This document shows positions 11,835 to 64,000 of a stretch of DNA of 64,000 nt, piece by piece (position 1 is the first letter of the stretch; every line of letters begins with the position of its first letter). The position numbers and the translations under genes were made by a program. The notes below the pieces were generated by a model that was not told the DNA's origin, made no database searches, and worked only from the letters and a program-made list of their open reading frames with translations. The stretch is from Amia ocellicauda. Its lineage: Eukaryota > Chordata > Actinopteri > Amiiformes > Amiidae. The stretch covers positions 16,691,550 to 16,755,549 of the forward strand of contig NC_089869.1 in NCBI RefSeq assembly GCF_036373705.1, read 5' to 3'.

Positions 11835-15834
<4,000 letters not shown>

Positions 15835-16675: not shown

Positions 16676-29836
<13,161 letters not shown>

Positions 29837-32593: not shown

Positions 32594-35500
32594 TCAGTGT
32601 GAACAGCTGTAACTGCTGCTTGGTAACTCACAGTGGACAGTTGATATTTTCTCCTCTACAAAGGCTGTGGAAGTGGTTGCTTTTGATGAGGTTGATGCAA
32701 CCTTGTCAGATAGGCTGAACTGAATCCCCTGTGTTGGCGTGTCTCTATGGAAGGCTTCATGTTGCACATGGTTTATAAAATGCACATTAAGTTTTGGTCT
32801 CTCCATGGGAACTGTCTGCTGTGAGTTCTGGTTTGGTCTCCTGAGGCAACAGGACAGGGTTGACACACAGTTTTTCTTAAAGTTTTCATTCATGAAGGCA
32901 TACACAATGGGATTGTTGAAGGAGTTGGAGAACCCTACAGCCTGCACAATGGCGATAATCATGCTGACAGTGATGTCGTCATATTCCTTCTCAAGATCAT
33001 CTGTGATTAAACGACGAAAGCACACATTACAGCACATAATCCCTAGGAAAGCAGTCAATTGATCTAAATAGAAGGACTGAATTCAGGATATCGTTCCTGT
33101 AAGTGTCCCTGGGAAAAACTGCACATGAGATGTCATTTAATCAAAACAGAGTATATATGGAAATCAACTTACTATATTCGAAGAGCATGTGCACTATATG
33201 AAATGGAGCCCAACACACTGTAAACAGCAAAACGACGGTAATCATCATTTTAACAGCACGTTTCTTCTTCCTGTAGCAATCGAAACCACAGAACAGTTAA
33301 TATAAACATGTCATGGACTTCCCAATACCTGCATATGTACCATGCACTGTTGTTCTTTAAAAAAAGTTATTAATGGAAAGAATCCTCTAAAAGCTACCCT
33401 TATGAAGAGAGGATTCTTGGCCACTCCTCCAGGCAGACTTGCTGGATAATAGACTTGATTGTGAGCTGTATGTCTTTATCATTCTGGAAAGTTCTATCAT
33501 TGACTCAGTTTCCTGACATGGGGCACCAGGATTTATGGCCAAAACTGTGGCTGCATATTCATAGGGTATTCATATAGTTGTACATTATTTGGCAATACAT
33601 TATTTTGAGCAGATATTGTTTCATATATACAATACTGATTCAACACTTTTTCATTTTTTGATTAATTTGTTGATGAACACTGAATTTACGCCTGCCTTCT
33701 CTTAGCTAATCCCATATTAAGTTATACTTCATCAATGGTAAGAATAACTCCCTCCAGAGAGATGGCAATTAAAAGCTACATTGCTGGGGTTGTATTCAGG
33801 TTGATACATCAGTTCTGTTCTCTGTGGGTAAACATTTTGGTTACAAAACACAGATACACACTTTATGTGCACAAAATGGGATTTAAACCAAGTTGGGACT
33901 GTCAAGAACCATCAGGAGATTTCGAGAATCTCAGAGTCAGCGCTGTTCAACCACAAGAGATATCTCAGAGGAACTACACATATTAGGCAAAACAATCTCA
34001 AGTGTTTGAAAAAAATACATCTGTAAAAGCAAAGCCCTAGTGGGATGCAGATAAACACTTCTACAGTGCTCAGGAACCACTCAAGACTGGCCCTCGTGTT
34101 TCCATTCACAGTTCTATCAAAATAAGCCAAGTACCTGGCGATTTTGTTGATCTCCCTGTGGTTCATGGTGTTTAAGACCGAAGAGTCTCCCACTTGCTTT
34201 CGGATCCAGAGTTTGAAAGCTATTCTGGTGTAGAGAAAGAGCATGGCTGTCAGAGGCAGAACGAAGAGCACCACCAGGATGAAGGTGGCATAGACCTGGC
34301 GATGTGTGGGGGAATGCCAGCGCTCCTGACAGCAGATGTGATGGAGGTCATAGAGGAAATCGTACTTCACCTGAGGAAGGAGATCATTCCTGTTTGAATG
34401 TTAGCAGTGAAGCAGCAAAGACTGAGGTAAGGCATTCATATGCAAGAAGCTATTTCTGCTGCATTAATAATCATAATATTATGTAATAACTATTTTATTA
34501 CACATGCCTGAGATGTGATCATATTATTGGGTCTATTTTGCACATATTCATTTTTAGTTCATAATAATAATAATCTTAATTGTTGTATTACACTAGTCTT
34601 TTATTTCTGAAATGCATCAAGTGACTACTGAATAAAAATCACAACTCAGAATTGATGGCATTGAATTAAATTAAATTATTAAAAAACACAGCCAGACAAC
34701 AACACTAAATAAACTAGAACATAAGAACATAAGACAGTGTACAAACGAGAGGCCATTTGAACCATCATGCTTGTTTGATGTCCATTAATATATACAGTGG
34801 GGGAAAAAAGTATTTGATCCCCTGCTGATTTTGTATGTTTGCCCACTGACAAAGAAATGATCAGTCTATAATTTTAATGGTAGGTGTATTTTAACAGTGA
34901 GAGACAGAATAACAACAAAAAAATCCAGAAAAACGCATTTCAAAAAATTTATACATTGATTTGCATGTTAATGAGGGAAATAAGTATTTGACCCCTTCGC
35001 CTTAGTACTTGGTGGCAAAACCCTTGTTGGCAATCACAGAGGTCAGACGTTTCTTGTAGTTGGCCACCAGGTTAGCACACATCTCAGGAGGGATTTTGTC
35101 CCACTCCTCTTTGCAGATCCTCTCCAAGTCATTAAGGTTTTGAGGCTGACGTTTGGCAACTCGAACCTTCAGCTCCCTCCACAGATTTTCTATGGGATTA
35201 AGGTCTGGAGGCTGGCTAGGCCACTCCAGGACCTTAATGTGCTTCTTCTTGAGCCACTCCTTTGTTGCCTTGGCTGTGTGTTTTGGGTTATTGTCATGCT
35301 GGAATACCATCCACGACCCATTTTCAATGCCCTGGCTGAGGGAAGGAGGTTCTCACCCAAGATTTGACGGTACATGGCCCCGTCCATCGTCCCTTTGATG
35401 CGGTGCAGTTGTCCTGTCCCCTTAGCAGATAAACACCCCCAAAGCATAATCTTTCCACCTCCATGTTTGACGGTGGGGATGGTGTTCTTGGGGTCATTCC

Positions 35501-38500
35501 TTCTCCTCCAAACACGGCGAGTTGAGTTGATGCCAAAGAGCTCGATTTTGGTCTCATCTGACCACAACACTTTCACCCAGTTCTCCTCTGAATCATTCAG
35601 ATGTTGGCAAACTTCAGACGGGCCTGTACATGTGCTTTCTTGAGCAGGGGGACCTTGCGGGCGCTGCAGGATTTCAGTCCTTCACGGCGTAGTGTGTAAC
35701 CAATTGTTTTCTTGGTGACTATGGTCCCAGCTGCCTTGAGATCATTAACAAAATCCTCCCGTGTAGTTCTGGGCTGATTCCTCACCGTTCTCATGATCAT
35801 TGAAACTCCACGAGGTGAGATCTTGCATGGAAACCCAGACCGAGGGAGACTGACAGTTATTTTGTGTTTCTTCCATTTGCGAATAATCGCACCAACTGTT
35901 GTCACCTTCTCACCAAGCTGCTTGGCGATGGTCTTTTAGCCCATTCCAGCCTTGTGTAGGTCTACAATCTTGTCCCTGACATCCTTGGACAGCTCTTTGG
36001 TCTTGGCCATGGTGGAGAGTTTGGAATCTGATTGTTTGATTCCTTCTGTGGACAGGTGTCTCTTATACAGGTAACGAGCTGAGATTAGGAGCACTCCCTT
36101 TAAGAGAGTGCCCCTAATCTCAGCTCGTTACCTGTATAAAAGACACCTTGGAGCCAGAAATCTTGCTGATTGATAGGGGATCAAATACTTATTTCCCTCA
36201 TTAACATGCAAATAAATGTATAACTTTTTTGAAATGCGTTTTTCTGGATTTTTTTGTTGTTATTCTGTCTCTCACTGTTAAAATACACCTACCATTAAAA
36301 TTATAGACTGATCATTTCTTTGTCAGATGGCAAACGTACAAAATCAGCAGGGGATCAAATACTTTTTTCCCTCACTGTAAGTAATCCAAGGATACTATCC
36401 AGTCTATTTTTAAATGTTCCCAAATTTTCAGCTTCTACCACATCGCTGGGTAGTTTGTTCCAGATTGTGACGCCTCTCTGTGTGAAGAAGTGTCTCCTGT
36501 TTTCTGTCTCAAATGCCTTGAAGCCCAATTTCCATTTGTGTCCCCGGGTGCGTGTGTCCCTGCTGATCTGGAAAAGCTCCTCTGGTTTGATGTGGTCGAT
36601 GCCTTTCATGATTTTGAAGACTTGGATCAAGTCTCCACGCAGTCTCCTCTGTTCCAGGGTGAACAGGTTCAGTTCCTCAGTCTCTCAGTAGGACTTTCCC
36701 TTCAGACCTGGAATAAATCTGGTTGCTCTCCTCTGAACTGCCTCTAGAGCAGCGATATCTTTCTTAAAGTGTGGAGCCCAGAACTGTTCACAGTATCCAG
36801 ATGAGCTCTAACTAGTGCATTGTACAGTCTGAACATCACTGCCCTTGTTCTCAATTCTACACTTTTGACAATATACCCTAACACTGCATTTGCCTTTTTT
36901 ATTGCTTCCCCACATTGTTTGGATGGAGAAAGTGAGGAGTCCACATAGACTCCTAGGTCTTGCTCATGCGTTACTTCATCTAGTTCTGTTCCTCCCATAG
37001 TGTAATTATAGTGGACATTTTTGTTACCTGCATGTAATACCTTGCACTTGTCCACATCTGCCAGGTGTCGGCCTACAACTGAATATTATCTAAGTCCCTC
37101 TGAATAGCCTGTGCTTCCGAGATTGTATCTGCTGAGCCGCCTATTTTAGTATCATCTGCAAATCTGACAAGTTTGCTAACTATCCCAGAGTCCAGATCAT
37201 TAATATAGATTAGAAAAAGCACAGGCCCTAGTACTGATCCCTGTGGAACTCCACTAACAACCTCACTCCAGTTAGAAGCAACTCCTCTAATCGACCCTCT
37301 GTTTCCTATACATTAACCAGTTCATAATCCCTCTACTTACATTACCCTGAATGCCTACAGCTTCCAATCTGAGGATCAGTCTTTGGTGTGGAACTTTATC
37401 AAAAGCTTTCTGAAAATCTAAGTATATCATATCATATGCTTTCACATGATCTACAGCTGCAGTTGCATGTTCAAACAATTCTAATAGATTAGTGAGACAT
37501 GATCTGCCTCGTCTAAACCCATGTTGACTATCTCCAAGAATACGGTTTTCATTAAGATGCTCCTCTATTTTCTGTCTTATAATTTTTTCCAACATTTTAC
37601 AGGTGATGCAGGTGAGACTGATTGGTCTGTGATTTCCTGACTCAGTTTTGTCCCCTTTCTTGTGGATTGGTATGACATTTGCTGTCTTCCAGTCAGTTGG
37701 CACATCCCCTGTTCTAAGTGTCTTTTGGAATAGTTTTGTTAATGGCCTATAAATAATTTCCCTTATTCTTTAAATACTGTAGGAGATATGTAGGAGGTGA
37801 TCTGTTTGTTTTTAATTCTGCTAGTCCCTTTAGTACCTCCTACTCCCTGTCTTAGGGTTTGACTGGACTGGTTGTTAACCTGTGGCATGTTATCTGTTTT
37901 TTCTTTTGTAAAAACCTCAGTGAAATACTCATTTAGAACATTTGCCACATCTTGTTCATTTTCCAAGATACTTCCATTTTTGCCCTTTATCTGTTTCACG
38001 TCCTCCTTTATTGACCTCTTGTAGTATTGAAAAAAGCTCTTTGCATTAGTTTTAGCTCCAAGAGCTATGTTTCTTTATATTTCTATTTCTATTTGCTTTC
38101 CTGATCCCTTTCCTAAGATTTCTTTACAGTTCAACATATTCTTTGTATTTTGTTTAATCTCTATCCCTTTTGTATGCACTATACAACATTTTCTTTCTCT
38201 TGACATTTTTTTGCATAACTCTATTAAACCATTTGGGCCAATGTTTTGGTACAAATTTCTCCTGAGCCTCAATTACTATATTCTTAAAATATACCCATCA
38301 ATTTTGTACTGAATCTGTATCCAGTGTGCTCCAGTCTAACTCTTCTAAGTGTCACCTCATACCTTCAAGGTTTGCTTTTCTAAAAGTATAGAACGTTGTT
38401 TTAGACTTGGTCCTTGTTTTTTGAAAGTATGCCTCAATGCTAACCATATTGTGATCACAGTTTGCCATTGGTTCTCTAACTAGTGTCCCTCTGACTCTAT

Positions 38501-40564
38501 CCTGGTCATTTGAAAAGATCAAGTCAATGTATGCACGGTCTCCCTGGTTGCTTCCCTGACAAACTGAGTTAGAAAGCAGTCATTTACCATCTCAACCATT
38601 TCTATTTCTGCTTCTGTAGTCCCAACTGGGCTTTCCCAGTCAGTGTTTGGGAAATTGAAATCCCCCATTATAACAGCCACATCCTTGCTACATGCAGTCC
38701 TGACACTGTACAATGCAGCATCTTGCTGAATATCTGAGTTGGGTGGTCTGTAACACACTCCTACCACTAATCCTCTGGATCTTTTATTCAAAAGCTTAAT
38801 CCACACAGATTGTTTCATTACTAGGGTCTAATTTGAGTTTTTCTGCCTCAATATCATTTCTGACATATAATGCTACCCCACCACCTCTTTTGATTTGTGC
38901 ATATCCTTAACTTATTCATCCCCATCATTTTCTGTAAGCCATGTTTCCGTCACTCCTACAACATCATAGTCACACGCCAGCACTGTGGCTTCTAGTCTTC
39001 TATATCTATGTAAACATACGTCTACATGGCAGTTTAGTAGTTTCTTACAAATATGTAAATAAACATGATGATCTTACCTCCAGCTGCTGAACATACAGTA
39101 ATGGAGATCCAACAATCACAGCTGCACTCCACACAACTCCTGTTTATTGAACAAAAAAGTACATCCTGGTTATAGCTACACGATTAAAATGGATACCTTA
39201 ACTACACTTCACTTCAGAAAAGCCCCTCAATGTTTGTCCATCAGCAACTAATTGTTCTGTTAGTGGCCCAGCATCTAATTTACAAGACAAATTAACATTA
39301 ATACCTTCATTTCAATTCCTAGCTGCCTGGTTTGGTTTATGTCTCCATCAGGTTCAAATAAGACTTTGCAGCTGTAAACATGAAATATGTGGGCAATCTC
39401 AACAGAGAATTCTTGACATTTTGATAATCTGGTGGGTTGAGCCATTGTTCTGATTATGTATGAAAACAATTAAACAATTACAGAAGCAATATAATAGGAA
39501 TCATCTTTAAAACTCAAACAGCACACAGACTTAAATCCTTCTGGAATTGAGTCCTTTCAATAATACAGATTTAGATCAATAATACAATACATCAAACCAC
39601 TTTCTGCCATAGCTTAACATTGACTAACATGTAAAAGTGGATATAGGATTTTGTTTCATGCCATCTTCCAAACCATACCAAGCATCCTGTAGGCTCTTTT
39701 TGGGGTGCACTGCCTCTTCATTTTCAGTGGGTAGACAATTCCCCGGTATCTCTCTACAGCAATGCATGTCATTGTAAGAATACCGGTCACTATGGCAGTG
39801 CTTTGTACAAAAGGGATCATCTTGCATACAAATACACCTGCAAAAGTGAAAGAAATACTTGGTTACATGTTTTCCCTCCAGCTTATCTCAGTTACTCAGT
39901 AAGTATTCAGGTTCTGTCAAATGCATCAGATAAATTACTGACACCCAAAGTCAGCAGCTGTACATGTGATGGTAATATCAGAAGTGCTTTATTCATCAAG
40001 AACATATTCAAACATCTGAGAATGTGAAACTTTTCCCCAGGGTTGTAGGTTACTTGGTGCCTTGCAAGTTTTCACCAGCCATCCTTCAACATGTGGAAAG
40101 AGTTTGGGGAAAAAAAATATCAGATTCATTTGAACTGCTCAATTAATTTAAATCTTATTAATGAAAAAAAAATGTTTACAACCCATGAGAATAGCAAGTG
40201 AGAAAACTCATGAACTAATGTATTGCTTATTTCTGAGATCAAAGCTGTCCATGCTCCTTTTATTAGGTCACAATGTATTTTGCTTCCCATTTATTTGTAA
40301 TATATACTAATAAGGAGTGGAGAATTGAAGATAGATAGATAGTGAATTGAGTTCTTTACATTTTATTTATGGGTTTAAAGGATATATATATATACCAAAA
40401 AATAAGCTGGTATGTCAACTTGCAGTATAATTGATTGCATGAAAATTATGATTCAGCATATCGCTTCAGTGAAAGGAGACTGAAATTAAAAGCGATTCAT
40501 GAAAACCAAGTTTGGTGTGCAATGTTCATAATTAATGCATGATCCATTAAGCCATTATATCCAT

Positions 40565-40644
<80 letters not shown>

Positions 40645-41071
40645 TTTATTAACATTGCAAAGACAAACACACAAACTGTTTTCTACAGTAAATCCGATGC
40701 ATTTGAAACTCACCTCCAAGCCACACAGAAGAGATGTTTTGCAGCAGGGTGAAGGGGATGCAGAAGAAAGTGATGAGCAGGTCGCTGACAGCCAGGGAGC
40801 AGATGAAGATGTTGGTGGCAGTCTGCGCCGCTCTCTTCCGCAGCACAATGAAGACTACCAGGCTGTTCCCCACCAGTGCCAGGACGAAGATAATGGCATA
40901 CATCACCACAAAAACTATCTTCGCTGCAGACGGCAGCTCGGGGGTGTAGACGAGGGGTTGCAGATGATAGGTGTCGATAAAGTCCCGTCGGGAAAGGTTG
41001 TAATAGTCTAGGAGCTGCTCCAGTACCTCGGGGGTTATTTTCTCCGACCCCATCTCACCGGAGGCGGTCAT
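32594..41071 (-). CDS. qrfpr: QRFP/26RFa receptor-type GPCR
   Basis: Class A GPCR for RFamide peptides at the plasma membrane. Coding exons (minus): 41071-40714, 39837-39679, 39139-39078, 34370-34135, 33270-33173 and 33000-32594; joined 1320 nt, 439 aa (human QRFPR 431). The N-terminus contains [11 protein letters not shown], a hallmark of this receptor. TM1 has GNSLVV. TM2 has [14 protein letters not shown] followed by LLQNIS. The TM3 end has [13 protein letters not shown], with E148-R149-Y150 in place of DRY. ECL2 has [15 protein letters not shown]6 has CWAPFH; TM7 has [15 protein letters not shown]124 and an ECL2 Cys can form the canonical disulfide. The cytoplasmic tail has CCLRR (possible palmitoylation). 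All six exon phases agree and no stop interrupts the frame. Fish have several qrfpr paralogs. I cannot assign which one, but linkage to 10q22-type genes suggests it is not the direct orthologue of human 4q27 QRFPR. Confidence 0.93.
34718..34794 (-). mobile_element. CR1 LINE 3' end (part 1, split)
   Basis: AACATAAGAACATAAGACAG with a downstream ACAAACGAGAGGCCATTTGA is the conserved 3' end of a fish CR1-type LINE on the minus strand. It is cut off at the TA where a Tc1-like element is inserted, and the LINE resumes at 36378. Confidence 0.75.
34795..36377 (-). mobile_element. Tc1-like transposon, full-length but defective
   Basis: A 1583-bp element bounded by TA dinucleotides (34793-34794 and 36378-36379), with termini CAGTGGGGGAAAAAAG / CTTTTTTCCCTCACTG and about 200-bp inverted repeats. 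The transposase runs on the minus strand from the ATG at 36010-36008 to about 35005. It carries a premature TAA at 35938-35936 (after GMG), a frameshift near 35595 just after KFANI and another near 35270. The catalytic segments are still legible: [11 protein letters not shown], then [13 protein letters not shown], then [11 protein letters not shown]. It is inserted into the CR1 LINE inside receptor-gene intron 3. The element is dead but its ends look mobilisable in trans. Confidence 0.92.
36063..36139. repeat. Internal hairpin in Tc1-like element
   Basis: Two 34-nt arms (36063-36096 and 36106-36139) are reverse complements with one mismatch and a 9-nt loop. They lie just upstream of the transposase start on the minus strand. 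Confidence 0.85.
36378..39050 (-). mobile_element. CR1-like LINE, 5' truncated, decayed
   Basis: Read on the minus strand from 39050 to 36378. It begins in the endonuclease domain ([11 protein letters not shown], then [21 protein letters not shown] and IMGDFNFP), continues through reverse transcriptase ([42 protein letters not shown]) and ends in a C-terminal region with [20 protein letters not shown]. Many frame breaks split it into separate open pieces. The N-terminal ORF and start are missing, typical of 5' truncation during target-primed insertion. It is in the same orientation as the host receptor gene. Confidence 0.9.
40569..40642. repeat. (TAA)n microsatellite in receptor intron 1
   Basis: About 25 TAA units, lying about 70 nt downstream of the receptor exon 1 splice donor (40713). 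It reads as poly-isoleucine in both strands' open frames. Confidence 0.97.
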
Positions 41072-43339: not shown

Positions 43340-43425
<86 letters not shown>

Positions 43426-43994
43426 CATATTAAATAGAATTCTATACAATAACCTCTGTAAAATATTATACACAATTAAAAATCAGGACTATAATAATAC
43501 AAATATAGCATATATTAATATTGTATGTCTCTCCACAAGGAATATAGTTTCCAATTAATCTTTTCAGAATGTGCTTGTTTAGCATTTCCTTTGCTACTTA
43601 AGTTTTAATTTCATTTCTGTCTTGCAGTTGGCTGTTCCAATGCCATGGCAAAGTGATATGGTTTGTAGATGCTTTGAATGTAGTTTGTGTAATCAGTCTT
43701 CATTAATGTCTTTTTGTTAAAAAATAAAAAATATCCTAATTTTCCATTTTTATCATTATCATCAATTGGTTTAAAACACATTGTGTGAACTGTCATTACA
43801 TTATTTTGTTAATTAAAATACATATTTTTAGATTTTTAAAATATTTTGAAGAGGATTTTGTTTTCTGCATCTTCAGCTAAGAAATTGAATGAAATCTGTT
43901 CCTTTTTGTTTAGGGCTTTTTCCTGATATTTGCTGTGTAAAACAATATATAGATACACACTGCAGTGGCTGAAGCACGACGTACTGGTTGTGAC
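41072..43994. other. Divergent upstream region of receptor and TBATA
   Basis: About 2.9 kb separates the receptor start codon (minus) from the first TBATA coding exon (plus). A GAAG|GTAAGC donor at 43111 could end a non-coding first TBATA exon. A compound (CTA)n/(TAA)n repeat lies at 43340-43425. I recognise no other gene. Confidence 0.45.
43340..43425. repeat. Compound (CTA)n(TAA)n microsatellite
   Basis: About 18 CTA units followed by about 11 TAA units, a phase-preserving C-to-A transition between neighbouring repeat blocks. Confidence 0.95.
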
Positions 43995-46900
43995 ATGGAT
44001 CAAAAACCAGAGTAAGTATAATAATAGACAATGGATATTCTGTTGTAGCAACCAGGCATATCCCTCCCAAAAGCTCCTACAAATGCAGCTGACTTTGGAT
44101 AGATCAAAAGGTAACCTGTTATTTAGGTCTATTGTCTTTTCAAGGGCCATGGAGGCATCAGTAAAGAAGAGAATGGAGATATTGGAGGACGCTGTTTCCA
44201 CTGCTATCAATCGCAAGGACGCCCTCAAGAACATGAAAAAAGTCGAAGATGTGTCTTTTAATAATCCTCTGCGTTTGACTGAGGATGCTGGGAAACTGCC
44301 AGCCAAAGGCAGCCCTCGGTTTGGCACGCTGAGTCACCATTCGTTTTTCTCCCGACACAATCCTCATCCTAACAGGGTGACACATATCCAGGGTAAGCCA
44401 CTTTGGAAAACCAGACTAGACATTTTCATTAGACAGTGAATGAAAAAAATGCTATTGACGTATATGCTTGCCTTTTAGTATGAAAGGTTGAAAATACATC
44501 ACATATATGATTTAAAGTGAGATAATATACCACTGCAGAAAAGAAGTTCCTTTTGCTGCAGATCTAACATCAAATATGTATGTATGTATGCACACACAAT
44601 CTATGTGTGTTTGCTTGGTGAAATGGAAAAGAAAGCAGCATTAACTATCAGCTGCTCATCTTTAAATAGGCTCAGCAATTATTATCGATTTCTTAATCGT
44701 TCTTATCCAGAGTGACTTTTAATTTACACAAGAAGCAGTGCAAAAGTGCAGTAATACAGTCGATACAAAATACAATTTAAGAAATACAAAAGTGCAGTAG
44801 TACAATCAATACAAAATACAATAAGCATACATCCTAGTTCAGTGAGGTAACAAGTGCAGACAAAATACAATTAAGTCCTAGGTATGTGCTAAAGGGCATA
44901 GGAGGAATCTCAGAAAAATAATAGACGTTCCAACAATATGTAAGTAGGCAGGAGCAAAAGGAAGCATCGTTACATAAAGTAACAGCTCAGGGGAATAAGC
45001 TGCTATATTTCAGGTACAGTCTGAACAGATGTGTCTGGAGTAATCGCTTGAAGGTGGTCAGGGACTCTGCTGTCCTGACCTCAGTGGGAAGGTCGTTTCG
45101 CCGAGGTCTGGACAAGTAGCCGAGTTGGGTAGTTGGTGAGGAAGCAGCAGATTCTGTGTGTATTGCTCAGGAAGAATCGGCAAATGTAGTCTGAGTGAAG
45201 AGTGAAGTGCTGGGAGTAGGATAAAGGGAGGTCAAGAGTGACCCCAGATTCTTGTCAGAAGTAGATAGCAGGGATATTGAAATGGAAAGATCTGTAGAAG
45301 GTGAAGAGGAGGAGGGAAAAGAGGAGAAGATAAGGTTTGGAAAGGTTAAGCTTCAGATGATAGGATAGAGATAGAGACAGGAAGAGACTAGAGAAGGGAT
45401 GTGGAGGTCAGAAGAGGGAAAAGGCCGCAAGATCTGAGCGTATTCTGCATAGAAGTGGTAGGAGAAACCATGGGATGTGATGAGGGGGCCCAGAGAGCGG
45501 GTGTAGAGAGCGAACAGGAGGGGGGCCAGGACAGAACCTTGCCAGAGAATCAAAGGTCAGCAAAGGAGGAGAGGAGAAGGAAGTGATTGACAAAGTCCAA
45601 GGCTGCAGAGGGATCAGCACAGAGGCATGAGCAGAGTTGGTGCGTAGTCTATGACTTTCAATAAAACACATATCAGCCTAAATAAACTTCAGAGCCTTTT
45701 GCATGCTTTGATTTCCTGTACAGGCTTGTCACCAGGATTCAGAAAGCACACACTATTAGAGGTGTTTAACAGAATTATTTGCAGTGCTTCTGATAAGATT
45801 AGCTCTGCGTAACCATTGGCTGTGTCTTCATGTGACTTTCAGTACTAAATGTTGCACTTTAAGTAACAAATGTATGTCTTTACAAAACACACATAAATGG
45901 CACTAAACACATGCAGACTGAAGAGGAAACATTCTCATCATTAATTTGTATCATTATGGTTTTTTTCAACATTTTCAAATATAATAGACATAGGCACTGT
46001 TCAAATTTAACTATGTTAAATTCACTTTTAATTAAGCATGAAATTAAGGATTTTCAGTTCAAATGCTCTCTGTCTTTCACAGTTCAGTCTTGAATCCAGT
46101 AACATACTACCAAAAAAGGACTAAATGCAGGATTATTTATTCAAAACTTTAACCTGAGTCACTGATTTACTTTAATTGCATGGCTGTTGCAGAAATTACT
46201 TAGATGATGATATATAATTTTGATGCTACTCTACTGCTCACTTATATTCCTGTTAGAAATCTGATTGAAACTAAAATCAAACTCCTGCTTTTTCTTTACC
46301 TGTCATGTATAAATAGAATTCACCAAGGCCCTATTCAAAGGTTCAAAGCTTCATTTGTTCGCGAGGGACTCAAATGTAGTGCTAAATCTTCAGAGGTTTG
46401 TTACATATTCAAGCAATGTATAAGCTGCTCTTATGTGTTTATTTGGGTTGAATTAAAAGTGATTAAGGGAAAAACATTATGAAGGATCATTTGTACGTAT
46501 TAGAGTCTTGCTGTGATGTTGCTTTTTCACTGAATAACAGATGAATACTACCTACAGTGCATTTTCCAATACCTCAAATAATTAATGTTACCTTAAGCAG
46601 GAATAGCCTTCATAATTAAGTGCTCTTTTTCTATCTTCTGAATAAATTACCTCTTTGCAGCTCCACAGCTGGAAAGATACTGATTAAAAACTGCCTCAAG
46701 TGTTTTTGGACTTGACAGGGAAAAAAAAAAGCTACATTCTTGCTATTGATAATGTCTTGATGGGAAACAAAAAAGAGCTCAACATAATTGATGTCTGTGA
46801 CCTAAGTGATGTCTGAGGGAGAATGCTGAGGGAGGGTACACTATAAAAGCAATGTGTTTCCGTTAATGGTTCACTGTGTACTACACAACAAACAGTTTCT

Positions 46901-49900
46901 TTTCTGATGTAACTCATTATAGAAAGCTAGGGGAATACAAGGTTTGAGCTAATTATTTAAGAAACAAGAATGGCAACATTTTATACTATGGTGTCACAAA
47001 TAAATGAGTGGTACAGAACAGTTAGGAACCATTAATAATTCCATTTATGAATGATCAATAAACCTTTGATTTATCATTTATCAAAAACAAACTGTCAAAA
47101 CACTATTTTGTTTCAAATCTTTATTATAAATTATATATAATGTCTTATAAGGGTTTATTGACCATTTATACATTGAATTATTAATGGTTCCTAACTGTTT
47201 TATGAACTATTTACCAATCATTTATTAATGACACCATAATGTAAACTTTTACCACAGAAATGATCATGAAATCCAATGTATGTAATGCACTTTCTTTTCG
47301 TAGGCCTAAATGGGAATCCGGTGTGCATCGTAAACGATGACTGGTATGCCACCAGTCCTTCATCTCCACACCCTTTCCTCAGAGACCAGACTCTGATGAC
47401 AGTTTTGGGGGCACCTGGAGTGAAGATGCCTTATGGGGAACTTTATGGAAATCAACCACAAAAACAAGGCACAGGTAATGTGTGCTAAATGTTTGATAGA
47501 CGCAGCCTTTTTAGTGACAAATATCCATAGCAGGCTGAGGATTTTGGAAAGAAAGAGACCACGGTTCTATTGAATTCCAATGTACTGTTTCATGTCTTTA
47601 AATATTACCAGTTGGCATCATCTCCATCAACTACAGAAAAGCTTGATTAGCTTCATCCCCCTTGGTAATGTCCCTTTGGGAAGGGATGCCCTCTTGTGCT
47701 CATTAATGAAAATACACCTACTACGTATTCACATTGTACTACATCTGATGTATGGGGAAAGGAAAATTGGAAGTCAATTGTGATCTCCTTAGAGATGGAA
47801 AAACTATAGTCTTCAGATCAGAGAAGTATTTGTTATGAATACGTAGTGGTCAAAAAGTGTAGTTTGTCTATGATTACAGCCCTGCTGTCTGATGCCTGGA
47901 GGGAGGAGCTAAAAGATCTCGCTGCTAAAGTCTGTCTCTCAGCCCCTCTTGGAACAGATGGCAAAAAAACTGTGAGTCTCATGATAGATTTATTATAAAA
48001 ATGACTATTATTATCATTATTGTAGTAGTAATATTCCAAGGTGTCAATTATGTTACAGTTTCGGTTTGGGGTTTTGGTTTATGTTACCATTTTTCATATT
48101 CATAAAATGGTAAATGGCACAATATATATTTATTTGTTTATTGGTGAAAAACGCTTGTTGCCTCAATCTGGATGCTATGTTTTGCTTCAGAACCACCAGG
48201 CAGAAGAAGGTGCCGTCCGCCGCAGCACCCAGTACTCAGCCCGCACTGGACGGATCATCCCGTCCTCATCTCTTCCCTCCAGCAGGCGTTCATCGGGGAA
48301 GCACTCCAGGACCGGAGGCCAGGCAACGTCTTCAGCGCTCTATGACCAGGAACTAATGGTAATGGTAATGGTAGACTGAGCATGTTGTGACGAGCAATCA
48401 CATGACCACTGTCTTATATTAAAACACATCAATCACTGTTTGCATTTTTTCTTGAACATTTTGTCAGTTTCAAATGATACCATCTACAAAGGGACAGATG
48501 TGTTTAGTGTTTATGCCAAGTTGACGATGCATTTAGTGTTAGCATTGAACCTGCCCTCAGCCATGTTGCAATGTTCAGTTCATGCCAAACTGCATTCTAG
48601 TCGGCGATTCTCAAGGTTGTTTGCATTGGCAGGTGAGAACCCGTTTTTGATTTTGTGGATTTCGTGTCATGCTGACCCTGGCATTCTCTCTGTGACCCTC
48701 ACCAGGTCCTGGAACTGCTCTGCCAGATCCTCCAAACCGACTCTTTATCTCAAGTCCAGCAGTGGCTTTTGTTAGCAGGCCAAAGAGGTGAGAGGAAATT
48801 GTTTATGATTCAAATTTTAAATAACGTTTTCACTCACATTGAATGAGTTTCCAGTTTTCTACAGTCTGCATAAACTGAATTATTTGTTTGCTACCACTGG
48901 GTAATTAAAATGTCCAGCAGACACCTCAGAAAAGTATATTGTTGTAATTCCTGAGTCCAATTAGCAGCGCACACAGATGGGATTATGAGTCTATGAATGC
49001 CAGTGGAAGCCTAAATCCTACTAGGTAGCACTACACTACTATAATTGTATGGTATGAACCCTGCCGTGACTGACTAGACCTGACTCTAGATGTGTTATGA
49101 CTTTGTAAATCACCAATTTGAGTTTTTGACCATTGGTAGATATGTCATATTGGTCTGTGTCATATGTCTGTGGGGGTGGGCAGCATTGTAACCGGTCTAT
49201 TAGTAATTTCTTACGTGAGTCGTGACTGTGAAGGTGCCATCAATCTTTAGAAAATTTGCATATAAATGGTCACAGCATGCTTTAGTATCAAATGTGTTTT
49301 CCACTGCCATGTTTTCTACGTTTCTGTCTGATCATTTCCAAAATATATTCAGTGAAATTGGTTGTATCTGCTTTCAAGAGAAAGACTTGGTGATGGGAAT
49401 GATACAACAGGCAGTCGACAGAAGTACCTTTGACAGGCCCATACCTGACAATCCAGAGGGGTTACACACTCTGATGTCTCCGCTGGCGAGGAACTCTGTA
49501 CGGCACAGTATGACTAAAGACAGGCTTCCTAGGTAACATTCTCCATAAAATCAGTCTTTAAACGGATCGGTAATTCAATACAGCTCTCGTAGCATTACGT
49601 AAGTGATTACATCCGATTTCCAAAGGTGGTTTATTATCAGTGTGTGTTTGTGATTGGGAATACAAGATATGAAAGATATATCAATGGCACTGACTTTGTG
49701 AATGCCACTTTTTTTTCCCTATTGTATTTCTTCTTAGATCCTATCAAGGGCAGAAGCAAGAAGCAATCAAAGAAGAAATGCCAGGTATTGAAATAATGTA
49801 ATCCTAGTTTAAGTGCTCTTGTACAGGAAAGGATAAATAAATGTTATAAAAATCTGCATTTCTTTCCTCAGAGCGTATGGGAACTGCTGAGGTTCTTCTG

Positions 49901-49963: not shown

Positions 49964-50059
49964 TTTCAACACAATTACATGGTTTTCTTCTCCAGATTGT
50001 ACATTGTGATAAAGTTCATAGAGGACTAAAGTTGATAGGTCCTTGTTATAATGTATTGT

Positions 50060-50112
50060 AATAAATGTATCTTTTAAAGACTTCCAGAAACAATATGATC
50101 AGAAACAATAAA
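50060..50112 (+). promoter_or_regulatory. tbata: TBATA polyadenylation signals
   Basis: AATAAA at 50060-50065 and 50107-50112, about 100-150 nt after the stop codon. Confidence 0.7.
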
Positions 50113-51654: not shown

Positions 51655-54600
51655 ATGAAAACAAGTGATGCTTTTACACATTCACTGGCTCTTCTCCTTC
51701 TGGTTTGGGCTCGGGCAAATGGTAATATATCTTTTCTGATTCTATGTATAGCTGACATATGTTTAGGTATTTCTGCTAATCCGTATACAGGGTTTGGAGA
51801 CAATTGCCGAATGTTTTTACATATATCTCTGAGGACAGTCATTAACTTTTTTTCCCTATAGCTTTATGTACCTATTATGTATAATCTTAAATTATACAGT
51901 GAAAGATTTTCTATATGGTAATCAAAGTTATTAACTATCAGAAAGGAGGCTTCCAAAACATCTTCCAAAATGTCTAATTCTAATTAACCTTTGTTTAATC
52001 TTGTTTATTTATGGTTGTTATTCATATTGAAGTTGCTGTATAGATGACAGGAAATTATTTTGAATGTGTTTTAATGCATTTTAGTGTACTCCGAAGCATC
52101 TAAGTTTGAAACAGGGACTCTGTATGAGTACCTCTACACTGTGGATGTAGTCCTGGAGCCGACTGCTGAGCATGACCGGATGAGATCTGGATTCTCAATG
52201 GAGGCCGTGGTACAGATCCATTCACTGTGGAGAAATCCAAGCAATGAGCAGGACCTGCTGGTCCAAATCAAAGTCAGTTTCTTCTGCTTCCATTGTCGTT
52301 CCAACTCTAGAAATGTATGTAACTCTGAACTGTGCAGATTAGAGACAGAATTAAAAATGTGCTTCTTTGTGTTTCCTTCTCTTTGTTTTAGTTTCAAGAC
52401 CTTAAGGTTATGAGCAACCATAATGGAAGTCAATCCATCTTCATGGATTCGTCAGTAGAAGAGTTACTTGGACAACAGCACCTACATGATTTAAGAAAAC
52501 CTGTCTTGATTCACTCCATTGGCGGAAAAGTAACCTTTTTGATTTCGAAGTCGCTTCTCTTTGATCGCTACAGATCCTACAGATAAGACTCAGGACTGAT
52601 AGACTGAGACATTCTAGATTTAAAATGGCCATGTGCTTTTAAGAAAACTTTTCCCTTTCTAATGAGTTTCAGCAGGAGATATCGTTGCATGCATTTAGAT
52701 CAATGTCAAGGTATATATATATAATGTATATATATGTTCTGTGCTGCAATGAGCCATATTTCCTTTCTTCTTAATCATAATCTTTCACAGCTTCCATTCT
52801 GTGGTTTCAAAGCCTTTCTTACTTTCAATCCCTGTTGCAGCTGGAAGACGTGTTTGCTGCTAATGAGACCAACAAGTTTATTTTGAATCTGAAAAGAGGG
52901 CTTGTTAGTGTTTTCCAGATGCAGACGTATTCTGGAACAGCTACAGAGGTGAGCTTAGCGTGATATTTACAGGCACAAAGGGGTTTCATGTACTCGCTAT
53001 ATTGTATGGTTAGCTGCGTGATTGCTATGTACAATTTTAGAAGTATATATATCTGCTCAAAATGGATGGAATGCACTGGATTTGATAGAAATAATGGCTC
53101 TGCGGGGTGTTAGGTGAAATTTAAACCAAAATAAAGTTTTGTTTTGTTTTGTTTTGTTTTGTATTCCCAGAATGATGTGACTGGTAGATGCAAGGTTTTG
53201 TATGAGGTTTCTGGGAAGCAAATCATTAAAATAAAAGATTTCCAGAGCTGTGAAAAGGAAGATTTTGGCTATACCTCCACAAACCAGGTAAGAAAATTGC
53301 TAAAAGTGATATGAAACACAGGGGAGGTCTTTACTGTATTGATGGTGAGCCCAGATAAATCCCATCATGTCTGGGAACAACCCTTTTGAAGTGTTCCTTC
53401 ATGGGTAGGCCTGTGTCACAAAGTTACAAATGATTAACGACTTTTCAAACTATATGGATAGATATGAAACAATAGATCCCATAATGGTCCTTAGTCTTAC
53501 TACAATGTACAGGACTCCTCAAAACAAATTTTTAGGGGTTTGTTCAAGAAATACGTGTATCACTTTACTTTTCTTTTTCCTCATATCCACACAACAGCAG
53601 GTTATTTGAAGAACAGGAATTTATACAGCAGAAGCTAAACATGCCCTGCATCTGTCACTTGTTATTTCTTATCACTAGGGGCTGATGGAAATCTTTTCTG
53701 GTTCATTTTCCTCAGAAAATCAGAAGCTGGCTGCAATCAGCATTTATATTAATGAAGTTCTGCAATATGGTTTTAATTTTATATCCCGATTACTATTGAC
53801 ACGTACAGCATATGGGCTTGGGGTTAATAGCATCTGTACACAAAGTTTCCTTGGAGATATATTAAAAAGGCTGTTTCTACAAAGTTAGAAGGGATTAGGG
53901 TCAGCAGGTGAAGTTCACAATTAGCGTCATCAGCTATTTGCACAAGGACACCTGTACGCTCGTTTTGATATCAAGGGGGGAAATAATCTGGCATTCGGCC
54001 AGTTTTGCTAACGGCCAAAAACTATCTGCTGTGAGGGGCTGAGGAAGTTCACTCAGAGGAAGAGCTTCTCAGTCGGCAGAGTCTCGACTCGATTTTAAAG
54101 CTCTAAGGACCACAGGCTCAGACTGCAGCAGCTCTGCTTATAGGTTGAGTCTGATAACAGACCCTCACACTGATTTCCAGCCCTCTGGCCTTTGATATGA
54201 AGCTCCCTCATCCTTCACTGATTAAATACAACTAAAACGATGATGATTGATGATTAATAATAATAATACACAAATAATATCATTGGCTGCACTGGTGCAA
54301 GTGCATTCAATAGGAGATAGGCAGGTTGAGGTTCGGGAGGGGAGCAGAGGAAGATCTTAGCATCATCTGCATAAAAATGGTATGAAAAACCATAGAAACA
54401 GAACAAGAGGGGACCTAGGGCAGATCTTTGAGTTAAAATAGATGTTCTCTTTTCATATGTATTTCTCTCATACCAAAGGGAGTAACTAATTTTCCCCAAC
54501 ACAGATGTGTCACTAATTCTCACTTAAATTGCTATAGCAACAGTTAAGCAATGAAAGAAAAACAAAAAGCCATTGAATTGTTTCATTTCTTTCTTTATTT

Positions 54601-57600: not shown

Positions 57601-60386
57601 TTCTTTCTGGTAAAATTGTTCAAAAAGAAGTACAAGAGACTGCCATCATCACACTGGGTTCAGTGATTGGTAAAATGTGCTCTGCAAATAACTGTACATC
57701 GCAGGTAAGAACATGTTCAATTAAGTCAATTACACAAGGAGCCAAGGCATACATTTAAAAAAAATGTTTTTATACAAATGTATTTATAATGTATTCGTTA
57801 AGAATGTTGGAAATCTAACATAAAATACATCTGAATTTAAAAAAAAAATCAGATTTTATCATAATCTAAGCATTCTGAGGTAAGTTGTCCTATCTCTTGA
57901 AACACAAGTGACCTTACTTTACTTTTGATATGATTCTGCTGCAGGACCAAACGGTCAGCCCACTACAGCTACAGACCTTGCCAACAAAGTCAGTGTTTGA
58001 GTGTTGGTGACCAAAGCAATCCTTCTATTTAAGGTGTTGATATGCCTGGAATGTAATCTGCCTCAGGGTTGTCATTTTTCTTGCCAGTTATAAGGACATT
58101 ATACTGGGGATGGTATTAGAAAGTCAAGTGCTTCAATAACATATGAGGCTTGTCAATTATATTTTACATATTCGGAACCAACCAGACTTATATATAATCT
58201 TTTAGTTTATATACTACCCTTTGCAAAATTAATCTGCACTATATTGTTTTTTTAAATTTTATCTTTTTACTAGGAAGTAATAAGAGCTAAAAACTTAATT
58301 GTGGACAGACTGAAATCCTCTACTGAAGAATTTGCAGTAAAGGCATGTCTTTTAGCCTTGAAGAGTGCCTGTCTTCCAGAAACAATCCCCCTTATTCTTC
58401 AGTACACCGAGATGTCCAACTCTGTCTCCATTACTGCTCTGTCAGCACTGCAAAGGTTCCCCGCAAAGTATATTAACAATGAGGTATTGCGTGTTTCTGC
58501 ATTGGAAAACGTAGAATGCAACAATATCTGAAAGCTAGGCGATGTATTAGATGTCGTTGTGTATCTAGACATTTAACACCTTAAAGATTTATTTGACTTT
58601 GAGGACGTTCATCATTCAGAGGTTTGATAACAGTACAGCTACTACAAGTGAAATTGAATTTTTGTGTGTCATTTGCAAAACTGGGCATTTGGCCAAACTG
58701 TGAAACTCATGGGAGAGACAGGCCTAGACGTACAGAACATTGGAATTAATAGAGACAAAATTATGTATCTAATCCACATTATAAATTACACCTGAAGTCA
58801 TCACTTTCTGTACAGCAGGTCAAGCAGCCCTTGTATTTTTATTAAAGTATACATTATGAGAAACCAGTTGATGATTATAATATTGACTATGATACAGGTA
58901 CTTAACATCTAACTATGAGAAATGCTTTATTATTATCACAAAGGATCACACTGGTTTATGTACATTCTTACATTCCTGGATGACGGTATGTTTACTGTCT
59001 GTAGCTGGTTTATTAGTGATAAGTGGGCATTTGTGAAGAGGGCATTCAGTAGAACTATTAATAATGTATATCTGTATGTATTAATTCAAATATATCTAAT
59101 TCAATCTCCTTAGGTTAAGGAGCAAATGAGAAATATTTTTTATCAGAGGAAGAAACACTTTATTGAAACAGTTCGACTGGCAGCTGCAGAAATTCTCCTG
59201 AACAGCGACCCTCAGTATGTAGACATCAGAAATATTATAGAAGCAATACCGAGAGAGGGGCCGGAACCATCCAGATATTTATCATCAAAAATTCAAAGTT
59301 GTCTTAATTCTGATCATGGTGCAAGGTAAAAAGAATATTTATTCTCTGCTGTCCTATATGGCTCTCCTAGTTATACTGAACATATACATTATTATGATTA
59401 TTATGATTATTATTTTTACCCACAGCCATAGTCTGCATACAAAATGTCTTGATTCTTAATTGAAAACCTTGTTGTTTTTTTAATTAGGGCATTATTGATA
59501 CAAATGTAATCTGTTGGTTCAAATAGGTTTTACAATGTGACAATCAAATACAAGGCTCTACTGAACTAGAAATGCCTAATAATTATATCATTATAATTAT
59601 ACCTATAATTAATCACAGCTGGGATACTTTGTGTCTCTTTTAATGTGATTTCTGTTCTCTTTTTCCCAAGGAAAATCATTGTTGAAGTTTTAAAAGATTC
59701 AAACTTAAATAACTACAACCATCTATCCAGGCTTGGCAGTTCTTCAACTTATTCTGGAAATTTGACAGGTAAAATATAATTATGAATAATAAGAACCTTT
59801 AAATGTTCTACTTAAGGTTAGATAGTCCAATTGACCCTCTCCTTTCCACAATCCCTAAATAAGCCTGCATTCTCCACCCTCACCTGACCTAACTATGAAC
59901 AGTAGAGTGAACAGACCATATTAGTTCTAATTGTAAACATGCTAATTGTCACAATTTACTAATTAACATTGTGTTTTTCCTGTAGCAACCAAGGATATGG
60001 TCACCTCTTATAATGTTGACTTCCTCTTTTCCGAGCATGGATTTTTAAGAAAAAGTAACAGTAATTTCTACACATACAGCCATGGAAATAAACTACTCTC
60101 TGTACAGGTACTTTTACACTTCATAACCACCAATTATCCTAATTAACGTAAGGGGAACATGCATTGCAATGTTTTGAAGCATTGTAAATTATATTTCCTT
60201 TGAAGTGTAAGTGCTCCTTATTTTTATATTTAAGTAGCTTGTTAACACAGTTACAATACTTTTAAAAACTTGTTAAACACAAGGCATTTTGTATCAAATT
60301 AGTTTCAACCCTTTCAAAGGAAATTGCTCTCCTTGAAGTAATCTTATATTTTGTAAGTTGCCCTGGACAAGGGCGTCTGCTAAGAA

Positions 60387-60435
<49 letters not shown>

Positions 60436-63400
60436 TGTTTTGGCCTTGATATGTATTTACATATGTCACAGTTCACCTTGAATGATTTGAATCACCTTAA
60501 AGGTCATAACTTTATAAAAGCAGTATATTTCATTGACCTTTGAAAACTTAACGAATGCACATAGTTGTTTGGGGAGTAATGGAATACAAGTAGCGGTGTT
60601 ACTTAATCAGATTACAGAATTTTAGAATACAGGCATAGTACAACCAAAAACGTTATCGATAGTTTGTATTTGCAGTAAAATTTAAGATAAATCCACGTAA
60701 ATTACAAATAGTTACTGTGCATCCTAGCTGGTTCTGTGACCTTAATAATGAAAGACTTAATATAATACCACAATAACAACATACAACGTGTTAATAGTCT
60801 AAAACAAATCACACAAACTGAACACAATTAATGTGTTTATTGCATAAACAAGATGCATAATATTTCTCATGGGCTGATACTTGAAAATAAAGGGAAAAAA
60901 GTATTCCAAATGTAATCTAAAGGTATTCCGATTATGTTACTGTCTTGGATTGGATTAGGTTACAGATTATTTTCAGAACAGGGTCATCAGTATTCTGTAC
61001 AGAATACTTTTTAAATGTAACTCTCCCAACACTGGTTGTTAATTTTTTGCTTGTTTGTTTGTTTCCGTTGGTTTTTACAGTGTAATAATAATATACTACA
61101 CATACACATTTTTTCTTTTAGGTTTCTATGGAAGCAAAAGGTCTTGATGGTTTATTCGGTGAAGCTGCTGAGGAAGAGGAGATCATGGCAGGAATGTCAA
61201 CAACATTACTGGACGTGCAGCTCCGGCCAGTGGTCTTTTTCCAGGGCTATGCAGATCTGATGGAGAAATATTGGTCAGCCAATGGAGAACCACAGCATAT
61301 ACTAATGGCAAATATCCTGCCAATCGACCATCTGCAGGTAAAAACACTGATTCATCTTTAATTTTTCAAGCTGGAGAAGAGATCTGGTAAACCAATCTGT
61401 GTATGTCCATATGAGGATAACAGACACATATAAGATTAAAAAAAAAAATGGTTTGTTTGTTTTGACATCTTTATTGTCTCAGACACAACTGTATTATTAT
61501 AATTAGTTACATTAAGCTTAAAGCTTTATATAAAGTAAATAGGTACAGTAAGCATAGTAACCCAATTCATGCATTTTAGGTGTTTTCACTTCAGTCTGGT
61601 TTGCCAGTGCTTATCCACTTTCAAGGAGGGCTCACGGTTGATGTCACAAGTAGCACCGAGCTCAGTCTGTTCAGCCAAGAATCAAAGAGCAGAGTCACAA
61701 ACAGGTAAAATCAGGAAGAATTGCATGCTTTCCTTTCATATTAGCTGGAGACTGAAAAGATTCAGTAATTAACACTAATTAATTAACCTTCCTGTGTACA
61801 GTTTAATTACACTGCTCAATGAAAATCTTTAACAGACTGCAGAGGAGTGGAAACATATCCATCTTCAATTGTGGAGTATCACACGATATCTGTCCTTGGA
61901 GACCCTTTAAAAAAATGTTTAGACTGCTGTTGTAGTGGATTTATTCTCTGTTATTTATTTAGTTACACCCGAGTGTCTGCAAGCTTGACTGGCAAAACCT
62001 GTCTGTGAATGAGAGATGTACCCAGTTATTGTCTTTATGCAAACCATGTCCCCAACCTGTCAGAAATAATATTAATATTAAAGAGTCCAAACTGTCTATA
62101 GGAAAGTTCATGTTTCCCTCTTCAGTGTAAAGAATTCTTCACTTCCAGTCTTACCTGGAATAATAGTTCAGTATATTCCAATAAAACATTGGAATTGTAC
62201 ATTGTCACCCAAATCGATTAAATAAAAGGTTTACTGTTTAAAAGCTTATCCCCCCATATATAATGACTTCCACCTGCATTGGGAAACATCTCAATACCTT
62301 AAGCAATTTCTTTCATACAGTGAGGGAAAAAAGTATTTGATCCCCTGCTGATTTTGTACGTTTGCCCATTGACAAAGAAATGATCAGTCTATAATTTTAA
62401 TGGTAGGTGTATTTTAACAGTGAGAGACAGAATAACAACAAACAAATCCAGAAAAACGCATTTCAAAAAAGTTATACATTGATTTGCATGTTAATGAGGG
62501 AAATAAGTATTTGACCCCTTCGACTTAGTACTTGGTGGCAAAACCCTTGTTGGCAATCACAGAGGTCAGACGTGCCCTGGCTGAGGGAAGGAGGTTCTCA
62601 CCCAAGATTTGACGGTACATGGCCCCGTCCATCGTCCCTTTGATGCGGTGCAGTTGTCCTGTCCCCTTAGCAGAAAAACACCCCCAAAGCATAATGTTTC
62701 CACCATGTTTGACGGTGGGGATGGTGTTCTTGGGGTCATTCCTCCTCCTCCAAACATGGCGAGTTGAGTTGATGCCAAAGAGCTCGATTTTGGTCTCATC
62801 TGACCACAACACTTTCACCTAGTTCTCCTCTGAATCATTCAGATGTTGGCAAACTTCAGACGGGCCTGTACATGTGCTTTCTTGAGCAGGGGGACCTTGC
62901 GGGCGCTGCAGGATTTCAGTCCTTCACAGCGTAGTGTGTTACCAATTGTTTTCTTGGTGACTATGATCCCAGCTGCCTTGAGATCATTAACAAGATCCTC
63001 CCGTGTAGTTCTGGGCTGATTCCTCACGGTTCTCATGATCATTGAAACTCCACGAGGTGAGATCTTGCATGGAGCCCCAGACCGAGGGAGACTGACAGTT
63101 ATTTTGTGTTTCTTCCATTTGTGAATAATCGCACCAACTGTTGTCACCTTCTCACCAAGCTGCTTGGCGATGGTCTTGTAGCCCATTCCAGCCTTGTGTA
63201 GGTCTACAATCTCGTCCCTGACATCCTTGGACAGCTCTTTGTCCCTTTAAGAGAGTGCTCCTAATCTCAGCTCGTTACCTGTATAAAAGACACCTGGGAG
63301 CCAGAAATCTTGCTGATTGATAGGGGATCAAATACTTATTTCCCTCATTAACATGCACATCAATTTATAACTTTTTTGAACTGTGTTTTTCTGGATTTTT

Positions 63401-64000
63401 TTGTTGTTATTCTGTCTCACTGTTAAAATACACCTACCATTAAAATTATAGATGTACGAAATCAGCAGGGGATCAAATACTTTTTTCCCTCACTGTAATA
63501 TTTTTTTATTGACAACCAACATAATTCAGATGGTTATTTCAATATCTGTTTTTCAAACTGTGGTCAATTTGTGTCTCTAAGGGGCACCTTGGCAATCAGT
63601 GGCACAATAGAGATTGATGCTTCTTTCATAAATGTTGGAGTGGAAACCAGAACAGAAGCTCAGACCCAGTTTGTTTTTGTTAACACTGTGCGCTTCTCAG
63701 AAATGCCAGTATTGTTCTGTTTGCAAATGAAAAAGGAACCATACCCTTACAGGTACAAATACTTTTTTCTATACATTAACATGCACATGTTGTTGTTGTT
63801 GTTTAATTGTTTTAACTGGCAAGAAAACATACCATTAAATAAATATAATGTTGTACCTAATATTGTTCTGTTATTTAGGGAGTCCGTTGTGGTATATGAA
63901 AGGTTTCCCAATGGGAAGAACTTCACTTTGCAGAAGAGAAGAAAGTTTACTTTCCCAGGAGAAGAGGTCTCACTACACAAGAGAAATTCTGAGATGTGTA
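51655..64000 (+). CDS. MTTP-like lipid transfer protein (3' end off window)
   Basis: Large lipid transfer protein of the MTTP/vitellogenin superfamily; MTTP loads lipid onto apoB in the ER with PDI. Exons: 51655-51721, 52085-52272, 52392-52529, 52841-52948, 53171-53287, 55475-55614, 55960-56113, 56302-56447, 57223-57391, 57597-57704, 58274-58483, 59114-59325, 59671-59768, 59986-60107, 61122-61337, 61580-61704, 63582-63752 and 63879 onward. 870 codons are visible with no break (human MTTP 894). A signal peptide ([12 protein letters not shown]) lies at the start. The N-terminal sheet has [17 protein letters not shown]; the helical domain has [13 protein letters not shown] and [13 protein letters not shown]; the C-terminal sheets have [14 protein letters not shown]. 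The Cys pairs C174/C194, C437/C442 and C819/C870 align with the human MTTP disulfides as I recall them. Identity to human MTTP by eye is only about 40%, lower than expected for a fish MTTP orthologue, so I call it a paralog. The window ends just after SEMC, probably about 15-20 codons before the stop. Confidence 0.92.
53131..53161. repeat. (GTTTT)n short tandem repeat
   Basis: About six GTTTT units that form part of the polypyrimidine-like region directly before the MTTP-like exon 5 acceptor (53170). Confidence 0.85.
53290..55470. other. Long MTTP-like intron 5
   Basis: A 2.2-kb intron with a short L2-like fragment on the minus strand but no other recognised feature. The flanking exon phases join cleanly. 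Confidence 0.6.
54250..54450 (-). mobile_element. L2-like reverse transcriptase fragment
   Basis: The minus strand reads [20 protein letters not shown] followed by [11 protein letters not shown], the YADD-box region of the same kind of LINE as at 44.7-45.6 kb. Short and isolated. Confidence 0.65.
56503..56946 (-). mobile_element. Tc1-like transposon remnant
   Basis: Begins ATACACCAATCAGCCATAAC, a known Tc1-like terminus. The minus-strand frame contains [24 protein letters not shown], the last catalytic part of the DDE domain, then [20 protein letters not shown]. Most of the transposase is deleted and the 5' end is missing. It lies in the intron between MTTP-like exons 8 and 9. Confidence 0.8.
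60345..60435 (+). repeat. LINE/SINE 3' tail plus (TAA)n
   Basis: GCCCTGGACAAGGGCGTCTG then CTAAGAAAATAATAAT is the typical tail of fish L2-type retroposons, followed by about 14 TAA units. Located in MTTP-like intron 14. Confidence 0.7.
62318..63495 (-). mobile_element. Tc1-like deletion derivative
   Basis: 1178 bp between TA dinucleotides (62316-62317 and 63496-63497), same family as the 34795-36377 copy with nearly identical inverted repeats. Two internal deletions have occurred. One removes the transposase start codon and one arm of the internal hairpin (junction near 63240). The other joins LLPSARA directly to [15 protein letters not shown] (junction near 62573), removing the second and third catalytic segments. 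A frameshift after KFANI is shared with the longer copy. It cannot encode transposase but retains both termini. Located in the MTTP-like intron before exon 17. Confidence 0.92.

Follow-up and report, generated by a model that had tools for sequence, protein, structure and literature searches.

Gene content and order of the locus

The stretch of DNA analysed here, hereafter the window, comprises the 64,000 nucleotides at bases 16691550-16755549 of contig C26 in the 988 Mb genome of Amia ocellicauda, and was read with 100 kb of flanking sequence joined to each side. It carries a QRFPR-type receptor gene and an MTTP-type gene, whose origin is the subject of this report, with TBATA between them; the three genes adjoin RPS24 and a gene for the largest subunit of an RNA polymerase, which we take to be POLR3A rather than another largest subunit. 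The original prediction, made from the letters of the window, had described this order and held both flanking genes to be intact. The finished models confirm it: the receptor reads from ATG to stop over six exons (440 amino acids, five GT-AG introns), the MTTP-type gene reads over 18 exons without an internal stop (874 amino acids, 17 GT-AG introns) to a stop codon 12-14 nt beyond the window, and the Pfam SPATIAL, S24e and polymerase domains identify the other three (Table 1). The SPATIAL profile has three matches in the genome, all at the TBATA locus of the window.

The MTTP-type gene and its canonical counterpart

When human MTTP was aligned with splicing over 44-66 kb, 342 of 879 residues were identical; for the canonical fish copy the count was 321 of 860. 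Both counts include spurious short end exons, which were removed from the final model. The first 22 residues of the protein look, by eye, like a signal peptide. Both Vitellogenin_N (PF01347, 192.3 bits) and MTP_lip_bd (PF19444, 296 bits) match above cut-off at nearly full length, i.e., the protein combines the N-terminal lipoprotein domain with the MTP-specific lipid-binding domain that marks the MTTP family. The domain order is that of canonical MTTP (human structures 6i7s and 8eoj, and the copy on contig C19 described below). Intron positions and phases agree with the C19 copy at all 16 comparable introns, while 10 of 16 internal exons have the same length. Of the ten cysteines in mature human MTTP, the window copy keeps nine; the missing one, C866, is absent from the C19 copy as well. 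Pfam scores of this size, together with the intron pattern common to the window and C19 copies, exclude chance as the source of the observed gene content.

Three other candidates were rejected. Pseudogenes are ruled out by the intact frames and GT-AG introns of both the MTTP-type and the QRFPR-type gene, a processed copy by the introns held in common with the canonical gene, and a mis-identified vitellogenin or apoB by the MTP_lip_bd score.

The original prediction had named, as what would speak against it, both genes being one-to-one counterparts of human MTTP and QRFPR with no second copies in the genome; searches of the genome found a second copy of each, mttp on C19 and a QRFPR-type gene on C9. 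The MTP lipid-binding family has 11 exon-level matches in the genome, six on C19 and five in the window, at these two loci only; one of the five lies below the family cut-off, and some matches overrun exon ends into stops outside the model exons. The C19 protein matches human MTTP in the PDB at 1135 bits, and a TRMT10A-type gene (best match 4fmw, 357 bits) lies directly upstream of it in opposite orientation. Human MTTP and TRMT10A stand, we presume, head to head at 4q23. The human MTTP match and the head-to-head TRMT10A-type gene thus identify the C19 gene as canonical mttp at its ancestral location.

Chromosome types and the ohnolog reading

Four receptor genes of C26 and C19 were typed by PDB search. 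C26 carries an ADRB1-type gene (549 bits versus 486 for ADRB2 and 369 for ADRB3) and an ADRA2A-type gene (581 bits versus 434 for 2C and 427 for 2B), whose human counterparts presumably both lie on 10q25. C19 carries a DRD5-type gene (655 bits versus 564 for D1A) and an ADRA2C-type gene (500 bits versus 494 for 2A, against a shortened PDB construct), whose human counterparts we take to lie together on 4p16. TBATA is, on our assumption, the gene also called C10orf27. In human, C10orf27, ADAMTS14 and PRF1 are neighbours at 10q22.1 (PMC3477005). About 156 kb beyond the window, C26 has an NPFFR-type exon that shares 51 of 67 residues with human NPFFR2, the one NPFF receptor with which it was compared; in human, NPFFR1 belongs to chromosome 10 and NPFFR2 to chromosome 4 (PMC4131245). 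A paralogon joining human chromosomes (Hsa) 4, 5, 8 and 10 has been published, with ADAMTS3, ADAMTS2 and ADAMTS14 among its families (PMC2453138), which bears out the earlier statement that human 4 and 10 belong to one ancient paralogon. From the ADRB1/ADRA2A-type versus DRD5/ADRA2C-type genes, the TBATA-ADAMTS14 neighbourhood and the published paralogon, C26 is therefore Hsa10-type and C19 Hsa4-type. With the human positions taken as above, the two MTTP copies hence occupy the places expected of ohnologs from the ancient two-round (2R) genome doubling.

We consider it likely that the block is the ray-finned version of human 10q22 and that it keeps 2R ohnologs, i.e., QRFPR3 and an Hsa10-type MTTP ohnolog, which mammals have lost. 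The doubling would have left MTTP copies on Hsa4-type and Hsa10-type chromosomes, of which the latter would have disappeared later in mammals. This reading, which the original prediction had put forward in saying that the locus keeps the chromosome-10 copies of both genes, is supported by position: Hsa10-type markers surround the window copies on C26, and Hsa4-type markers accompany the canonical mttp on C19. The accompanying claim of loss in mammals holds in part: for MTTP it is about right only if the chicken gene MTTPL is an orthologue of the window gene, and for QRFPR3, reported from ray-finned fish only (PMC4208404), it is too narrow. The MTTP-type gene is a probable 2R ohnolog, and no description of the origin of an MTTP duplicate or ohnolog was found among the matches listed in a literature search that left subscription journals and preprints mostly outside.

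Relation to chicken MTTPL

Chicken also has an extra MTTP-type gene, MTTPL, on its chromosome 6, which we take to correspond to human 10 (a literature search gave no source for this). The gene (769580) is placed under 'bird-specific genes' in a table of genes with no mammalian homologue, which also includes vitellogenins and apovitellenin; laying-hen liver expresses it 7.65-fold more than pullet liver (PMC6839265). MTTPL is among the proteins upregulated toward peak laying (PMC8566343). In hens with fatty liver it belongs to the genes whose expression is reduced and whose H3K27ac peaks disappear (PMC10919017). In turkey, one gene bears the annotation 'large subunit-like' (PMC9601516). What is known here of chicken MTTPL is its name, chromosome and expression; it and the window gene are probably the same old paralogue.

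Sequence comparison and age of the MTTP copies

A three-way alignment of human MTTP with the finished models of the C19 and window copies has 842 shared columns, starting at human residue 30. Human and C19 agree at 497 of them (59.0%), human and window at 317 (37.6%), and C19 and window at 299 (35.5%). Under LG+G4, the branches of this unrooted, three-sequence tree are 0.357 for human, 0.283 for C19 and 1.149 for the window copy. As far as these sequences go, no particular affinity links the window copy with the canonical mttp of the same fish, contrary to what a young duplicate would lead one to expect. From an unrooted, uncalibrated comparison of this kind, however, no age for the duplication follows. 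A count in which residues favoured human over the canonical fish copy (82 versus 54, p 0.020; branches 0.312, 0.308 and 1.115) was withdrawn, as both fish proteins had been aligned through the human one and the excess is partly alignment bias.

Several points weigh against a 2R age and an Hsa10-type origin. First, the comparison is one of three sequences and gives no rooted tree. Second, 76 residues are common to human and window only and 58 to C19 and window only, a difference that is not significant (two-sided p 0.14; 94.4% of 2000 bootstraps above zero). Third, the C19 branch is shorter than the human one and falls between the values expected under a clock for an old and for a younger duplication. 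Fourth, ADRA2C is preferred over ADRA2A on C19 by the narrow margin given above. Fifth, orthology with chicken MTTPL is argued from name and chromosome only.

A younger duplicate of the ray-finned lineage (e.g., from the teleost duplication), moved into the 10q-type block and evolving fast, would explain the long window branch of 1.15 and could accommodate residue counts that do not differ significantly. However, the contig of the window is of Hsa10 and not of Hsa4 type, and no excess of residues is shared with the canonical copy of the fish, where 58 stand against 76; moreover, chicken has MTTPL on Chr6 (PMC6839265), and every intron is kept, hence no retrocopy is involved. We regard a younger duplication as improbable. 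An equally slim chance is given to a tandem duplication before 2R, after which the sister chromosomes lost different copies; the two genes would then be old paralogues rather than strict ohnologs. The strong divergence of the pair, at 35.5% identity between the fish copies, would suit it, and the same possibility has been discussed for QRFPR4 (PMC4208404), yet no locus of the genome holds both copies, and the pattern of one copy per paralogon member requires no extra loss. The reading of the window gene as the Hsa10-type 2R ohnolog, whose age we infer from these positions, is the one followed below.

Predicted properties of the MTTP-type protein

Sixteen MTTP positions known from the MTP disease and zebrafish literature were compared; the human residue is present at 10 of them in the window copy and at 12 in the C19 copy. 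Both copies retain R540, N780, G746 and G865; S590, L435 and Y528 are retained in the C19 copy alone, and D384 differs from human in both. In a human-anchored alignment, identity to human is highest in the lipid-binding part (45.3%), followed by the helical (36.2%) and N-terminal (33.8%) parts. Domain order, intron phases and all but one of the cysteines are those of canonical MTTP; the window copy differs from it in overall identity (35-38%), in chromosome type and at S590, L435, Y528 and D384. Judged by its residues, the protein would fit a working lipid-transfer protein with altered partners. It is probably a lipid-transfer protein of the endoplasmic reticulum, paired with PDI, which would load lipid onto apoB- or vitellogenin-type lipoproteins, perhaps in the liver during yolk formation.

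The QRFPR-type receptor

With human QRFPR residues taken from a PDB alignment as the query, spliced alignment over 32-41.5 kb gave 227 of 346 aligned residues identical (65.6%). The completed frame runs from an ATG at 41071 to a stop at 32594; its protein matches 7tm_1 at 207.5 bits, and its top PDB match is human QRFPR at 481 bits versus 162 for NPFFR2, with a query that was partly guessed. In a genome search with exons 1-2, in which 150 of 779 candidates were scored, two QRFPR-type loci appeared, the window and C9 near 38.0 Mb (37995988-37999267), and no QRFPR1 was seen among those 150. In exon 1, the C9 gene shares 44.3% of residues with the window gene and 43.3% with human QRFPR; in exon 2 the figure is 52.6% for both. 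The same search gave NPFFR-type exons at C26:16.9, C9:39.8 and C8:20.7 Mb, and further matches led by C18 (41%) and C11 (39%), which lie in single open frames of 453 and 383 amino acids, respectively.

Four ancestral QRFP receptors have been described, of which QRFPR1 is absent from gar (PMC4208404). In that paper, QRFPR3 forms a separate, highly supported clade in all ray-finned fish examined and lies on Hsa10-type chromosomes, i.e., on linkage group LG5 of gar, where the Hsa10-type NPY4R is its neighbour, and on chromosomes 12 and 13 of zebrafish. The window receptor is likewise of QRFP-receptor sequence, from a ray-finned fish, on an Hsa10-type chromosome (with TBATA alongside) and built of six exons, as the five introns of the paper imply; no difference was found in this comparison, which covers receptor type, location and exon count. 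The window receptor fits QRFPR3, and the C9 gene fits the more distant QRFPR4. As QRFPR3, this half of the finding is already published, and its product is probably a G-protein-coupled receptor for QRFP.

Alternatively, the window gene could be the direct orthologue of human QRFPR (QRFPR1), relocated into the 10q-type block. Its identity to human QRFPR is much higher than that of the C9 gene in exon 1 to either sequence, and the exon 1-2 search offered no other QRFPR1 among its scored candidates. Against this stand the separate Hsa10-type QRFPR3 clade of all ray-finned fish examined and the lack of QRFPR1 in gar (PMC4208404), and we judge a relocated QRFPR1 very unlikely, preferring QRFPR3.

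Intron 3 of the QRFPR-type gene (34.8-38.8 kb, minus strand) is swollen, containing by eye reverse-transcriptase-like frames and a broken Tc1-like transposase. Transposase fragments like the latter were also seen by eye at 56.5-56.9 and 62.5-63.2 kb, inside introns of the MTTP-type gene. On C9, about 64 kb from the second QRFPR-type gene, lies an intronless frame that looks by eye like a D1-family dopamine receptor (38063125-38063979), possibly of the D1C type, which mammals lack.

A STAR2-type neighbour and the wider proposal

The MTTP copy is followed downstream, 8.2 kb after the end of the window, by a START-domain gene (72242-74196, window numbering) that shares 113 of 208 residues with human STAR and has 3p0l as its best PDB match. 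At 36.99 Mb, some 1 Mb from the second QRFPR-type gene, C9 carries a START exon taken for canonical STAR, which is identical to human STAR at 47 of 63 residues and to the window's neighbour at 28 of 63; other START matches lie on C3, C10 and C11 (nine listed of 27 scored). Human STAR lies, we assume, at 8p11. From STAR itself and gar LG1 in PMC4208404, C9 would be Hsa8-type.

Fish star2 has been published as arising 'independently in the teleost lineage' (PMC9141715). The gene beside the window is likewise a second STAR gene besides the canonical one. That paper infers an independent teleost origin; the Hsa10-type surroundings of the STAR2-type gene described here, shared with two other such genes, suggest instead that it is of 2R origin and not teleost-specific. 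The block would offer a 2R origin for a gene left as independent in teleosts.

A wider proposal, which we put forward tentatively and hold to be possible rather than probable, makes a single 2R gene of the window gene and chicken MTTPL, specialised in the lipid loading of egg-yolk lipoproteins and not specific to birds; egg-laying fish and birds would have retained it, and mammals would have lost it with yolk provisioning. Under the same proposal, star2 is a 2R ohnolog too and not new in teleosts. If the ohnolog reading and the orthology with chicken MTTPL are right, jawed vertebrates would have inherited two MTP genes from 2R, and a laying-hen gene called 'bird-specific' would predate the fish-tetrapod split. 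Because MTTPL rises in laying-hen liver as described above, existing genomes would then allow one to test when a possible yolk-lipid loader arose, how widely it occurs and where it was lost.

Minus-strand exons resembling an ADAMTS2/3/14-type protease were noted at about 76.5-122 kb (window numbering), as at human 10q22.1 near TBATA; in Pfam they scored 19.7 bits, under the cut-off of 20.8.

Feature coordinates and a further observation

Table 1. Features of the locus, in window numbering
Feature	Position	Strand	Basis or remark
QRFPR-type receptor, best reading QRFPR3	32594..41071	-	spliced alignment to human QRFPR, intact frame, 7tm_1, PDB match
QRFPR-type exons	40714-41071, 39679-39837, 39078-39139, 34135-34370, 33173-33270, 32594-33000	-	spliced alignment to human QRFPR
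TBATA (SPATIAL)	44344..48807, approximate	+	exon-level matches; PF15256 81.4 bits, joined exons
MTTP-type gene (proposed MTTPL)	51655..64014, window end 64000	+	spliced alignments, splice sites, PF01347 + PF19444
MTTP-type exon 1	51655-51721	+	predicted; hand-placed from one ATG with phase-1 donor
MTTP-type exon 18	63879-64014	+	stop codon 64012-64014, outside window
RPS24 (context, partial exons)	13838..15068	-	PF01282 (S24e) 113.6 bits; coding-like stretches
RNA polymerase largest-subunit gene (context)	17466..28135	+	PF00623 + PF04998 over cut-off, joined exons; coding-like stretches

Elsewhere in the genome, a cluster at C1:22.4-24.7 Mb comprises about 40 intronless frames of class A receptor type, each about 340-395 amino acids long, an expanded receptor family that is perhaps of the trace-amine or odorant kind.

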